Shown: in pieces, positions 9,105 through 11,654 of the stretch | Layout of the letters: the number at the start of each line of letters is the position of its first letter | Numbering within the stretch: the stretch's first letter is position 1 | Origin: Mariprofundus ferrooxydans PV-1 | GTDB lineage: Bacteria > Pseudomonadota > Zetaproteobacteria > Mariprofundales > Mariprofundaceae | Direction of reading: 5' to 3' | Length of the DNA stretch: 45,339 bases | Assembly: GCF_000153765.1 (NCBI RefSeq) | Contig: NZ_DS022295.1 | Span: 453,095-498,433, forward strand | Position numbers and translations under genes: made by a program | Notes under the pieces: generated by a model | What the model saw: only the letters and a program-made list of their open reading frames with translations | Database searches by the model: none | Told to the model about the DNA's origin: nothing

Positions 9105-9401
9105 TTAATCCAGTCTCGGCAGGGCTACACCATCAACATGATTATGGCCTTTTGAGGTGCTCAGCCCCAGCTCCGTCAGCGTGGCAATCTGCAGCGTTAC
9201 AACCTGCTCGACTGTCAACAGTCCGCGCGCAGCCAACCAGGAGAGATCCTTGCGCACATCACCTGCCGACATGTCATGACCGAACAGGTGCAGCATCCGC
9301 TGCAGCTCACGATCATTCATCCGGTGCGCTGTATCTTCCGCCAGTGCCTGCAGGATAGCCAGGCGGCGATCTGCAGCCTTGGCCTCGGCAAATGGGTTCA
9401 T
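9105..9401 (-). CDS. Mu gp26-like winged-helix protein
   Basis: A 98-residue protein with an ArsR-like winged-helix pattern: a helical N-terminus (Arg-Leu-Ala-Ile-Leu-Gln-Ala-Leu-Ala), Met-Asn-Asp-Arg-Glu-Leu-Gln, a recognition-helix region near 47-60, and Gly-Leu-Leu-Thr-Val as the wing. In Mu-like phages it lies just before the small terminase. It may regulate late genes or take part in packaging; its role is not established. Its start overlaps a 12-codon minicistron by ATGA. Confidence 0.8.
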   Translation of the reverse strand: MNPFAEAKAADRRLAILQALAEDTAHRMNDRELQRMLHLFGHDMSAGDVRKDLSWLAARGLLTVEQVVTLQIATLTELGLSTSKGHNHVDGVALPRLD

Positions 9402-9436
9402 TTCATACCTCCATTGCTGTCATACGCCTTTGTCAT
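9398..9436 (-). CDS. Candidate minicistron 3 (12 residues)
   Basis: The frame Met-Thr-Lys-Ala-Tyr-Asp-Ser-Asn-Gly-Gly-Met-Lys overlaps the DUF2730 stop by ATGA and the gp26 start by ATGA. Its Gly-Gly codons are the GGAGGT ribosome site of gp26. It shares the Met-Thr-Lys start and double ATGA coupling with two longer minicistrons at 10,758 and 11,038. At this length coincidence is possible; the likely function is to pass ribosomes to gp26. Confidence 0.4.
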   Translation of the reverse strand: MTKAYDSNGGMK

Positions 9437-9750
9437 GCTTTCCCCTTGCTGTTGAGCAGGTGCTGGTTCATCAAGTCCACGGCTCGCTTCAAGCCGCCTA
9501 GCGTGCCCTCCACGTTCGACAGGGTTTTGTTGATCGAATCCAGATCGGTGTGTGTCGGCAGATGCTTGATATCCGACTCCAGCATGGTCAGACGTTTATC
9601 ATTCAATTTCTGCTGCTCAGCCACATGGGCCTTCATATCCTCAATGTTCTTCGTGGTTGCCTTGCGCCTGTTGCTGAAAAATACATAGAGGTAGACGGCT
9701 CCGGTTAACACATCCCGCAGCACAGCCAGCCAGAAATTTGCATCCATCAT
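9433..9750 (-). CDS. Mu gp25-like membrane-anchored coiled-coil protein (DUF2730)
   Basis: A 105-residue protein with one N-terminal membrane segment (about residues 5-25, Phe-Trp-Leu-Ala-Val-Leu ... Tyr-Leu-Tyr-Val-Phe-Phe) and a long helical cytoplasmic part with heptad-like Leu/Met spacing. This matches DUF2730. The start at 9750 is chosen because GGAGGGAA precedes it and it overlaps the TraR-like stop as ATGA. A second Met follows directly and could also serve. Function is unknown. Confidence 0.8.
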   Translation of the reverse strand: MMDANFWLAVLRDVLTGAVYLYVFFSNRRKATTKNIEDMKAHVAEQQKLNDKRLTMLESDIKHLPTHTDLDSINKTLSNVEGTLGGLKRAVDLMNQHLLNSKGKA

Positions 9751-9968
9751 TTCCCTCCCTCGTGTTCTTCCTGGCATGATGCGCAGCGCACGGCATGCGG
9801 TACTGCTGCGAGGCGTGCAGATGGAATAAGACACTCACAATCACGACAGATGCGCCTGTATTCCTCATCGAGTAGAGGCGCTTCCAGCGGCCGATAGCGC
9901 ACACGGTCCAGCGCCTCCTGGCGTGATATCTCTTCGCGTTCTGAGCCCATATCACACGGATCAGCCAC
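9747..9968 (-). CDS. TraR/DksA-family C4 zinc-finger protein
   Basis: A 73-residue protein with the TraR-type zinc finger Cys41-X2-Cys44 ... Cys62-X2-Cys65 after a short helical arm (Gln-Glu-Ala-Leu-Asp-Arg-Val). Such phage proteins can bind the RNA polymerase secondary channel and shift promoter output as DksA with ppGpp does. The start is GTG at 9968, within the TAGTG junction to the spanin gene. Family membership is clear; the effect on this host is inferred. Confidence 0.87.
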   Translation of the reverse strand: MADPCDMGSEREEISRQEALDRVRYRPLEAPLLDEEYRRICRDCECLIPSARLAAVPHAVRCASCQEEHEGGK

Positions 9969-10540
9969 TATTTCACCTCCGCGCCCAGCGATCGCAGGGC
10001 GGCCTCCAGCCCGGCAGTTCGGGCTTTTAATTTTTTGACATTGCGTCCCAGCGCTGCGGCTGCAGCATCATCCAGGCAGTAGTTGCCATCACGCACAAAA
10101 AAGGTGACCGGCTCCAGAGAATCGGCGGCAGGAATCACCACCTGAGCGGCAGGATTGCTGGCTACCAGCGTGGCCGGAGAGGCACATCCGACAAGAACCA
10201 GGCAGAGCAGCAACACGGGAAACAGGCTGTTCAGCTTATTGGCAGTGGCGGACTGATCCGGTCCGCCACTGCCACCGGAGCCAACATCCTTGTCGGCTTT
10301 CTGCTCTCTCTTCGGGGTTGTATCTTGCAGGGCCGTATCATGCGCGGCCTGATAGGCATGCTCGGCATCTTGTGCCGTTTGTGTGGTGCGCTGCTCGACA
10401 CGGGCGTTGTCACGCTCCTGCGTGGCGATTACAGCGCGTTTATTGGCCAGTTTAGCCTTGAGCTTCAACAGGCCGATATAACCGGCCAGCGCGGCAATCC
10501 CCGCGCCTGCGATGATCCATGAGAGAGGCAGACCGAACAT
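9968..10540 (-). CDS. Fused i-spanin/o-spanin-like lysis protein
   Basis: A 190-residue frame that looks like two lysis genes joined. Residues 6-27 are a membrane anchor and 28-80 a Gln/Ala/Lys-rich coiled coil, as in Rz (i-spanin). A Gly-Ser-Gly-Gly-Ser-Gly-Gly linker (about 87-93) follows, then a second hydrophobic stretch ending in a lipobox Leu-Val-Gly-Cys (Cys119), and a short Rz1-like domain with Tyr-Cys-Leu-Asp-Asp-Ala. Normally Rz and Rz1 are separate or overlapping genes. A GTG codon (residue 109, position 10,216) precedes the lipobox and could start a free o-spanin, but no ribosome site is visible. The linker DNA forms a 13 bp perfect hairpin. It lies downstream of holin-like genes. 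Confidence 0.7.
   Translation of the reverse strand: MFGLPLSWIIAGAGIAALAGYIGLLKLKAKLANKRAVIATQERDNARVEQRTTQTAQDAEHAYQAAHDTALQDTTPKREQKADKDVGSGGSGGPDQSATANKLNSLFPVLLLCLVLVGCASPATLVASNPAAQVVIPAADSLEPVTFFVRDGNYCLDDAAAAALGRNVKKLKARTAGLEAALRSLGAEVK
10241..10273. repeat. 13 bp perfect hairpin at the spanin junction
   Basis: GGCAGTGGCGGAC at 10,241-10,253 pairs with GTCCGCCACTGCC at 10,261-10,273 across a 7 nt loop. It lies inside the open frame of the spanin fusion and encodes part of the Gly/Ser linker. No T-run follows on either strand, so it is not a standard terminator. It may be a scar of the fusion or an element that influences internal initiation. Confidence 0.85.
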
Positions 10541-10761
10541 CAGGGCTTCGCCTTTGGATCGGCTGGATTCTTACCCTGCTGATGCGCGCGGAATACATAA
10601 GCGCCGCCACATGACGTGAGCAACATTGCTGCAGCTGTACCATCAAAGGGGCCGAGAACAACATCGGCGAGAATGTACTTCGCCATCACCACCAACCATG
10701 TGCTGACAAAGAGGAGGCGGGAGAGGCTGATTGTACCATCTGGATTTGAGATGAGCTTCAT
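10540..10761 (-). CDS. Holin-like two-segment membrane protein
   Basis: A 73-residue protein with two hydrophobic segments, about residues 15-31 (Leu-Leu-Phe-Val-Ser-Thr-Trp-Leu-Val-Val) and 42-58, and a charged C-terminus (Asn-Pro-Ala-Asp-Pro-Lys-Ala-Lys-Pro). It begins Met-Lys-Leu-Ile-Ser-Asn-Pro-Asp-Gly, a start seen in phage putative holins. The ATG at 10,761 has GGAGGTGCGAG upstream and overlaps a minicistron stop by ATGA. It ends in TGATG with the spanin-like gene. A holin role is inferred from size, topology and its place between endolysin and spanin. Confidence 0.65.
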   Translation of the reverse strand: MKLISNPDGTISLSRLLFVSTWLVVMAKYILADVVLGPFDGTAAAMLLTSCGGAYVFRAHQQGKNPADPKAKP

Positions 10762-10835
10762 CTCGCACCTCCATGTGCTCGACCCTTCGGGCACGCCGCT
10801 GGCGCGTGCAAACTACTGTCCTGTACTTTTGTCAT
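10758..10835 (-). CDS. Candidate minicistron 2 (25 residues)
   Basis: The frame starts Met-Thr-Lys-Val-Gln-Asp-Ser-Ser-Leu-His and ends Gly-Gly-Ala-Arg. It overlaps the upstream membrane-protein stop and the downstream holin-like start, each by an ATGA junction. Its first 10 codons match minicistron 1 except one conservative Glu/Asp change, while the second halves differ. The Gly-Gly codons are the ribosome site of the next gene. It may be a functional microprotein or a duplicated translation-coupling leader. Confidence 0.5.
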   Translation of the reverse strand: MTKVQDSSLHAPAACPKGRAHGGAR

Positions 10836-11041
10836 AGCGACACCGCCAGCCTGAGTGCGCAGATGGTAGCGCCCGCGAGCAGGGCTATGATGATGCAGAT
10901 AGCAGCCAGCACGGCATCGCCGAAGGCCTCAAAGCCTTCGGTGGTATTCCCGGCCTTCCATGCCTCCCAGCCAAACCAACCGGCGCTACCGATCGCAGTG
11001 ACAAACAGCAGCCACCAGATATCCAACATAGTTTGAATCAT
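10832..11041 (-). CDS. Small two-segment membrane protein, lysis region (possible holin/antiholin)
   Basis: A 69-residue, very hydrophobic protein: segments at about 7-25 (Ile-Trp-Trp-Leu-Leu-Phe-Val-Thr-Ala-Ile) and 43-67 (Val-Leu-Ala-Ala-Ile-Cys-Ile-Ile-Ile). The loop is acidic, Gly-Asn-Thr-Thr-Glu-Gly-Phe-Glu. AGGAGGTAAGGC precedes the ATG at 11,041. It lies between endolysin and the second holin-like gene, each joined by a minicistron. Two adjacent small membrane proteins in a lysis cassette suggest a holin/antiholin pair; which is which cannot be told. Confidence 0.65.
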   Translation of the reverse strand: MIQTMLDIWWLLFVTAIGSAGWFGWEAWKAGNTTEGFEAFGDAVLAAICIIIALLAGATICALRLAVSL

Positions 11042-11112
11042 GCCTTACCTCCTGTGCGGCACCCGATGGGCGACCTGCGGTCGTGCAAACTGCTTTCCTG
11101 CACTTTTGTCAT
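11038..11112 (-). CDS. Candidate minicistron 1 (24 residues)
   Basis: The ATG at 11,112 has a strong GGAGGT ribosome site inside the endolysin 3' end and overlaps its stop by ATGA. The peptide begins Met-Thr-Lys-Val-Gln-Glu-Ser-Ser-Leu-His and ends Gly-Gly-Lys-Ala, its TGA overlapping the next ATG as ATGA. The 5' half is about 90% identical in DNA to minicistron 2. Without it the region would be a 67 bp gap in an otherwise gap-free cassette. Confidence 0.55.
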   Translation of the reverse strand: MTKVQESSLHDRRSPIGCRTGGKA

Positions 11113-11654
11113 GACAGCACCTCCAGGGCTTTTGCATACAGACTCAGTCGATCGCCAAGCCCGTTGTAACCGCCATTGATGATGCGGGTGATGCCGCGCA
11201 TGTCGCCGACATCGGCGAGTTGATTGAGGTGATGCAGATCCCAGAACCAGGCGGCGGACATGGCTGCATGCTCCGGCTGCTCCAGCAGCTCCGGGTGATT
11301 GAGCAGATCCAGCCCGAGGGCGAGGCCGCAGCGCTTATAATTATCGTGACCTGTGACCATGATCAGTCCGCGTCCGCGATAGAATTGCCCGTCGTCATCA
11401 TCTGCGGGGGTATTGCCAAGGCGCGCTGCCAGCTGGCCGGTATCGTATTTGTCCAGATAATCGTGGCCGCCGAGTTCGCGTACATAGCGCAGCCGGCCGG
11501 ACTCATGGCCTATCTGGGCAATGAATGCAGCGACCTGCAGGGGCGTGATGATGCCGTAGTGACTGCATGCAGCAGTCAACGGGGCGGCCCACTTTTCAGC
11601 GCGGTCGCGCGGGATTTCCAGTATGTCGGTGAGATTATTCGGCGTGACAGACAC
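11109..11654 (-). CDS. GH19-family endolysin
   Basis: A 181-residue lysozyme of glycoside hydrolase family 19 (chitinase-like), which cuts peptidoglycan glycan strands at lysis. Key motifs are Gly-His-Glu-Ser-Gly (Glu51, proposed catalytic acid), a second Glu at 60 in Tyr-Val-Arg-Glu, and Tyr-Arg-Gly-Arg-Gly-Leu-Ile-Met-Val-Thr-Gly at about 92-102. It has no signal peptide, so it needs the holin-like proteins that follow. The start is GTG at 11,654 with GAGGT 7 nt upstream. It is the first gene of the late region after the terminator at 11,781-11,806. Confidence 0.92.
   Translation of the reverse strand: MSVTPNNLTDILEIPRDRAEKWAAPLTAACSHYGIITPLQVAAFIAQIGHESGRLRYVRELGGHDYLDKYDTGQLAARLGNTPADDDDGQFYRGRGLIMVTGHDNYKRCGLALGLDLLNHPELLEQPEHAAMSAAWFWDLHHLNQLADVGDMRGITRIINGGYNGLGDRLSLYAKALEVLS

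Follow-up and report, generated by a model that had tools for sequence, protein, structure and literature searches.

A structured dispersed repeat forms minicistrons in a prophage late operon of Mariprofundus ferrooxydans PV-1 and probably acts as a natural translational-coupling linker

Repeats are usually considered harmful inside operons. Mycobacterial interspersed repetitive units (MIRU) were reportedly described by Supply et al. in 1997. In the parts of the literature available to us, MIRU are short dispersed and tandem repeats (40-100 bp) that are apparently mobile, are inserted at start codons, carry an internal open reading frame (ORF) coupled to the neighboring gene by a 4-nt overlap, and are proposed to insert with little harm to expression (PMC12548453, PMC2734929). 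Here we analyzed a 45,339-nt stretch of the Mariprofundus ferrooxydans PV-1 genome (contig NZ_DS022295.1, positions 453,095 to 498,433; hereafter the window), where three minicistrons lie in the late operon of a prophage. Two of them are copies of a ~75-nt structured repeat (the unit), and the third probably is. Like MIRU, the unit is dispersed and in places tandem, holds an internal ORF at -4 spacing, and has empty sites in relatives. The unit differs from MIRU, as these are described in the available parts of the sources, in its occurrence in the host's class, Zetaproteobacteria, and in other genomes of the phylum, its three covarying hairpins, its junction-specific Shine-Dalgarno sequence (SD) and its copies in phage operons.

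Other described systems, likewise compared through the accessible parts of their sources, share single features with the unit. The bicistronic design (BCD) element combines a first SD (SD1) with a short leader ORF that holds a second (SD2) and whose stop overlaps the target start (PMC6302717, citing Mutalik 2013); the unit differs in being natural, repeat-derived and located within operons behind another gene. In class 1 integrons, the very short ORF-11 of attI1 is translated and assists a cassette behind it that has no start signals of its own, its amino-acid sequence mattering little, but it is part of a recombination site, has its stop codon supplied by the cassette and is not a dispersed repeat (PMC8876359). 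The Salmonella mgtQ, a small ORF between two operon genes, promotes translation of the second, but is a single regulated case in which the peptide residues matter and is not a repeat (PMC8092293). The GTAG and CGTC families of repetitive extragenic palindromic (REP) sequences are palindromic, dispersed and mostly intergenic; they are single tagged hairpins of 20-40 bp for which the available part of the source describes no coupling ORF (PMC3733652), whereas the unit has ~75 nt and three helices and is not a single tagged palindrome of that size. The unit would work like MIRU, a BCD element or ORF-11, a likeness of architecture, and we claim no membership in MIRU. The literature searched, which mostly did not cover subscription journals, yielded no description of such an element outside mycobacteria.

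Minicistrons as copies of a structured repeat

The three frames had been singled out by a model from the letters of the window and a list of its ORFs (the sequence-only reading). We found all three at the positions it gave, each sharing one ATGA with the stop of the gene before it and another with the start of the gene after it, and each with GGAGGT in frame as Gly-Gly, 5 nt ahead of the next ATG. Minicistrons 1 and 2 share 9 of their first 10 residues, as had been noted. The features, with the GGAGGT motifs read from the sequence, are as follows.

11038-11112, minus strand: minicistron 1, 24 aa, MTKVQESSLHDRRSPIGCRTGGKA; repeat copy, matched at 11035-11114 by R1, the covariance model built for the repeat in this analysis
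10758-10835, minus strand: minicistron 2, 25 aa, MTKVQDSSLHAPAACPKGRAHGGAR; repeat copy, R1 match 10755-10837
9398-9436, minus strand: minicistron 3, 12 aa, MTKAYDSNGGMK; probable repeat copy with its middle deleted, not found by R1
11047-11052, minus strand: GGAGGT within minicistron 1, SD of the 69-aa gene
10767-10772, minus strand: GGAGGT within minicistron 2, SD of the 73-aa gene
9407-9412, minus strand: GGAGGT within minicistron 3, SD of the gp26-like gene

The BCD-type layout of SD1, leader ORF holding SD2, and stop overlapping the next start was read directly in all three minicistrons. The endolysin gene is the upstream partner of minicistron 1 and its tail provides the GGAGGT ahead of it, whereas minicistron 2 is preceded by a weak GGCGGT. 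The anti-SD sequence was assumed; a pattern search for the 16S tail in the PV-1 genome gave no match. When 173 loci (1.27 Mb) were scanned with frames of at least 60 codons required on both sides, the strict form (ATGA at both ends and an SD inside) was found in these three minicistrons only, beyond what chance would give, together with 12 further ATGA/ATGA cases without an SD.

Minicistrons 1 and 2 are copies of a ~75-nt dispersed repeat with three helices. A DNA search with copy 2 across 78 genomes of the class returned strong partial matches in several, one of them in the host genome outside the phage, as well as pairs ~74 nt apart. On the whole host genome, R1 recovered copy 1 at E 2.6e-19 and copy 2 at E 9.0e-22. 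RNAalifold predicted 16 pairs from 28 aligned copies, 14 of them with compensatory (two-sided) changes. On this structure, which was derived from the same sequence-based (MAFFT) alignment and is somewhat favored by that origin, 91.0% of cells were paired, compared with a mean of 68.8% for shuffled alignments and 30.5-43.9% when the structure was slid by 1-3 columns. The covariation score was 0.565 against 0.185 for shuffles, none of 500 shuffles scoring as high, and covariation in the three helices is thus strong. An early reading of "no RNA structure", from folding of the window alone, was reversed by this covariation. The sequence of helix 1 varies freely around a fixed CAGGA loop core. Tandem and head-to-head arrays were also seen (loci L198, L202, L208, L209, L210 and L266), in which helix 1 is wholly different between units yet paired.

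Minicistron 3 retains both ends of the unit, including ATGACAA, GACAGCA and ATGGAGGT, and the middle is missing. It ranked third best among the window's 495 ATGA sites, with 14 of 20 bases against 12 for the next, and 28 of 2000 conservative constrained shuffles scored as well; R1 did not find it even at E<=5. It is probably an internally deleted repeat copy, and not the chance frame that the sequence-only reading had allowed for.

The repeat is abundant in the host's lineage. The counts that follow are lower bounds, as part of the candidates were scored in the host, class and phylum searches, and tandem units, seen in genomes G019 and G010, are undercounted by cmsearch, which discards overlapping same-strand matches. 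The host genome holds at least 57 R1 places at E<=1 and at least 52 at E<1e-3 (150 of 929 candidates scored). R1 matches at E<=1e-5 were found in at least 52 of 78 class genomes and in 12 of 18 genera, the most in one class genome being at least 57 (58 candidates scored). A draw from the phylum gave matches in at least 65 of 249 genomes; 20 of those 65 were labelled only "same phylum", and the copies read from three of the latter (G072, G114 and G118) carry GGATG. A further copy lies at G000:C3:498683-498764, 250 nt past the right end of the window and possibly near the prophage edge.

Junction copies and their gene pairs

We classed 211 unique copies, obtained from 238 matches after dropping those shorter than 60 nt or longer than 130 nt and duplicate contexts. 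A junction copy was defined as one at whose start a frame of at least 80 codons ends and at whose end another begins, a test that requires neither ATGA nor an ORF within the unit. Eighteen copies qualified; the other 193 are mostly non-coding and often tandem. GGAGG was present in 17 of the 18 junction copies (the remaining one has GGACG) and in 15 of the 193 others (Fisher 2e-15), and an in-frame ATG..TGA reading in 18 of 18 against 15 of 193 (Fisher 2e-17), P-values that overstate the independent evidence because the 18 copies represent ~8 gene pairs with shared ancestry. Similarity to copy 2 and the model score partly guided which copies were fetched; this raises the overall share of GGAGG but does not create its tie to junctions. 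All 18 junction minicistrons end in ATGA or GTGA upon the downstream start. All 18 units have a length divisible by 3, against 67 of the 193 others, whose lengths are evenly spread over the three phases. Thus, every scored junction copy keeps the frame and almost all keep the ribosome-binding site.

Among the 15 GGAGG copies away from scored junctions, 12 are of the ATGA/ATGA in-frame type, leaving only 3 of 193 with GGAGG but without that form. These 12, which include the window pair, adjoin short genes, further repeats or contig ends. In the commonest non-junction form ATCA replaces ATGA at the ends and GGATG replaces GGAGG; the latter difference sits in the hairpin loop of helix 3 and needs no stem change. 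With a 60-codon threshold, 4 of the 44 copies read in the host genome are junction copies, all with GGAGG: one at sucC|sucD, one at nuoF|nuoG and two in the window.

The structured repeat therefore sits between core genes (nuo, suc, suf) as well as between phage lysis genes. The gene pairs, named partly by Pfam and partly by reading of the sequences, are nuoE|nuoF, nuoF|nuoG, nuoG|nuoH, sucC|sucD, sufC|sufD, a membrane-fusion protein and an AcrB-type pump, and two FAD monooxygenases; a unit ahead of ftsW is of lower certainty. G024 has the unit between genes for two proteins that match PHROG families, tail fibre being one, and viral contig L075 has two chained minicistrons ahead of a PHROG protein of unknown function.

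Relatives show the same junctions empty and filled. At nuoE-nuoF, 19 of 30 nuoF loci overlap by 4 nt, 3 overlap by 1 nt, 2 are spaced by 2-4 nt, 5 carry the unit (one of them two units) and 1 could not be assigned. Among 30 sucD loci, the unit is present in 2; 11 overlap by 4 nt, 3 overlap by 1 nt, 5 are spaced by 0-2 nt, 6 show longer gaps of other kinds and 3 could not be assigned. In a NuoF tree covering 32 genomes, of which 7 are filled, 5 changes are required to explain the filled state, and at least 3 of these fall on well-supported branches. The sister genomes G005, with a bare ATGA, and G010, with two tandem units, have the same bases on both flanks. Such empty and filled states in close relatives are natural replicates for testing translational coupling. 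Upstream of sucD in L293, L294, L305, L309 and L316, sucC is lengthened at its end by a common stretch, GAGCAAGCATCGCTGTCCCGATG and variants, which may be another dispersed repeat at this junction.

A coupling linker and its alternatives

The explanation we favor, with a probability of about 0.8, is that minicistrons 1 and 2, and probably the shortened minicistron 3, are copies of the dispersed repeat that act as a natural bicistronic translational-coupling linker. A repeat of the host's lineage, ~75 nt long with three hairpins, would have inserted at ATGA stop/start overlaps. A ribosome ending the upstream gene at ATGA would restart at the ATG of the minicistron, aided by the SD in the upstream tail, read 12-25 codons through the hairpins and terminate where the second ATGA lies; initiation at the next gene, by the same ribosome or by a fresh subunit, would then rely on the GGAGG within the unit. 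The minicistron peptide would be a by-product. Overlaps of -4 are described as giving efficient coupling, and short ORFs as able to deliver ribosomes, in the available part of PMC12548453. For the phage, two small membrane-protein genes would have been placed behind the endolysin with translational linkage kept. The data show that minicistrons 1 and 2 belong to the repeat, that its structure is conserved and that frame and SD go with gene junctions; we infer that the frames are translated, that their translation is coupled and that the unit is mobile. As a tentative extension, somewhat less likely than not, a mobile repeat of environmental bacteria and their phages might target NTGA overlaps. 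By inserting a minicistron already equipped with a ribosome-binding site, it could spread through essential and phage late operons without disrupting their translation, and the intergenic form would then differ from the working coupling form by one loop base (GGATG to GGAGG).

The sequence-only reading had offered two views of the frames, a duplicated coupling leader or a set of lysis microproteins. The coupling leader is supported by the anatomy and by comparison with host copies; the duplication is not. That a phage leader with no relation to the host was simply duplicated in place would agree with the 45-nt direct repeat found by repeat search, to which both copies belong (82% identity, 277 nt apart), and with the strict decapeptide, which occurs nowhere else among the collections searched, but it is refuted by the BLASTN and R1 matches throughout the class. 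Copies 1 and 2 share 75.6% identity, no more than they share with copies elsewhere: copy 2 reaches 79.5% with copies from related host genomes, and copy 1 reaches 77.6% with a copy in viral contig L290. They look like separate members of a dispersed family and not like a recent duplication. A set of lysis microproteins working alongside the holin-like proteins, with conservation of the amino-acid sequence itself, would agree with the nine shared residues, with base differences at third codon positions and with the setting among lysis genes; we nevertheless consider it very improbable. The decapeptide DNA of copies 1 and 2 has three base differences, all at third positions, but two of these (GTG/GTA and AGC/AGT), earlier taken as silent, are the two sides of one helix 1 pair (alignment columns 17/26), G-C in copy 1 and A-T in copy 2. 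The synonymous-looking change therefore does not speak for peptide conservation. Host respiratory operons and non-coding arrays contain the same letters, and the conserved letters follow the hairpins of the repeat. The peptides have no hydrophobic stretch by eye and no Pfam or PHROG match, and thus show neither the membrane segment nor the homology of a holin or antiholin microprotein. No homologous peptide was found by tblastn of the 25-aa peptide in the phage collection, the decapeptide was absent beyond the window's own phage in 100 genomes of relatives and 78 class genomes, and strict and loosened decapeptide patterns in IMG/VR gave only two records, both identical to the window. Tiny ORFs that resemble conserved phage microproteins can be repeat copies.

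Another possibility is that the units are inert repeats, similar to REP sequences or miniature inverted-repeat transposable elements (MITEs), that tolerate junctions, the ORF and SD surviving purging with no positive role in expression. Most copies are indeed non-coding and often tandem (193 of 211 outside scored junctions), and an insertion must preserve downstream expression, so that only harmless copies would survive. We hold this to be unlikely, although a serious contender: GGAGG is nearly absent away from genes, and the unit would still have to carry translation across, so that the proposal differs from a coupling linker only in whether the unit improves expression. We think it improbable that the repeat is in the first place an RNA or DNA structural signal, such as a processing site or protein-binding hairpin, with coupling secondary. 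The strong covariation, the freely varying stem sequence and the fixed CAGGA loop core would suit such a signal, as would the Rfam search, in which covariance models on 11 copy-bearing loci at E<=1 gave only tRNAs and sub-threshold matches and no known family. This proposal leaves the frame and SD at junctions unexplained, and no promoter-like site was found in the region. A promoter or terminator role was rejected on that ground, terminator-like sites being located elsewhere.

Several observations weigh against the coupling-linker interpretation. The L075 phage case has GGACG, not GGAGG, before its gene, and the window copies folded alone do no better than shuffles (z 0.22, -0.55 and 0.25). 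Predicted SD accessibility of junction copies varies widely (0.02-0.80), so that hairpin melting is not a uniform requirement, and the shared ancestry of the junction copies reduces the weight of their number. In G010 and L388 the tail of the upstream gene equals the tail of the unit for ~17 nt; target duplication or gene conversion could thus supply some SDs. Because in G010 this match is between the nuoE tail and the unit tail, the empty site of G005 could be a deletion between short repeats, and either gain or loss fits the single events.

The late operon and related phages

A prophage cluster resembling D3112 and MP29 is mentioned in the available part of the PV-1 genome paper (PMC3179512). 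The neighbors of the minicistrons are listed below.

11109-11654, minus strand: endolysin gene (GH19 type), phrog_181 E 4.2e-69, PF00182 E 1.6e-9
10832-11041, minus strand: 69-aa protein, holin-like only in appearance, with two hydrophobic stretches and without a Pfam or PHROG match
10540-10761, minus strand: 73-aa protein, likewise holin-like only in appearance, with hydrophobic stretches; match to a PHROG membrane protein only at E 0.052
9433-9738, minus strand: Mu gp25-like gene (DUF2730), upstream partner of minicistron 3, PF10805 E 1.2e-8
9105-9401, minus strand: Mu gp26-like gene, phrog_436 E 9.9e-22, matching Mu gp26

Neither holin-like gene has relatives outside this phage in the viral collections searched. 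Endolysin relatives are numerous; the arrangement is absent in both of the two whose annotated neighborhoods were read. An insert at the gp25-gp26 junction was absent in 5 of 5 Mu-like reference phages (Mu, MuM16-2, Vibrio 1.028.O, Fc02 and Pmp9), the junction in Mu being a bare 4-nt overlap. The sequence-only reading had named absence from related phages as counting against its proposal, and such an absence was observed at this junction; the unit is nevertheless abundant in the host's relatives, which that reading could not see. When R1 was run on the window and 80 viral loci, strong copies were found only in the window, L075 and L290, and BLASTN of the consensus in plasmids and phages gave no match.

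Several pattern matches were rejected. One extra IMG/VR match obtained when the downstream SD was added to the pattern (L012) and the genome-contig matches L005-L009 are due to chance, the latter by context. Of 32 IMG/VR loci returned by a looser pattern, 29 showed by eye no relative of the unit; the others were L012 and the two records identical to the window. An unrelated 20-aa ORF (MKKVQEAV[RK]ISNETGKA[YF]G[AV]), whose end carries an SD, recurs in 19 of these 32 loci (L147, L150, L152-L158, L160, L162, L163, L166, L168-L172 and L175).

A 190-aa single ORF at 9968-10540 on the minus strand resembles an inner-membrane spanin fused to an outer-membrane spanin lipoprotein, with an N-terminal hydrophobic stretch and a phrog_739 match (E 0.0014) for the former and a lipobox-like LVLVGC and a phrog_3198 match (E 0.0024) for the latter. 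A perfect 14-nt inverted repeat with a 7-nt loop lies inside this gene at 10240-10274. Finally, gp26-like matches of 29-38% identity were seen at G000:C3:572563-572829 and at similar places in relatives, within longer frames that mostly span 220-310 codons and occur in many genomes of the genus, perhaps representing a host protein that shares the domain.

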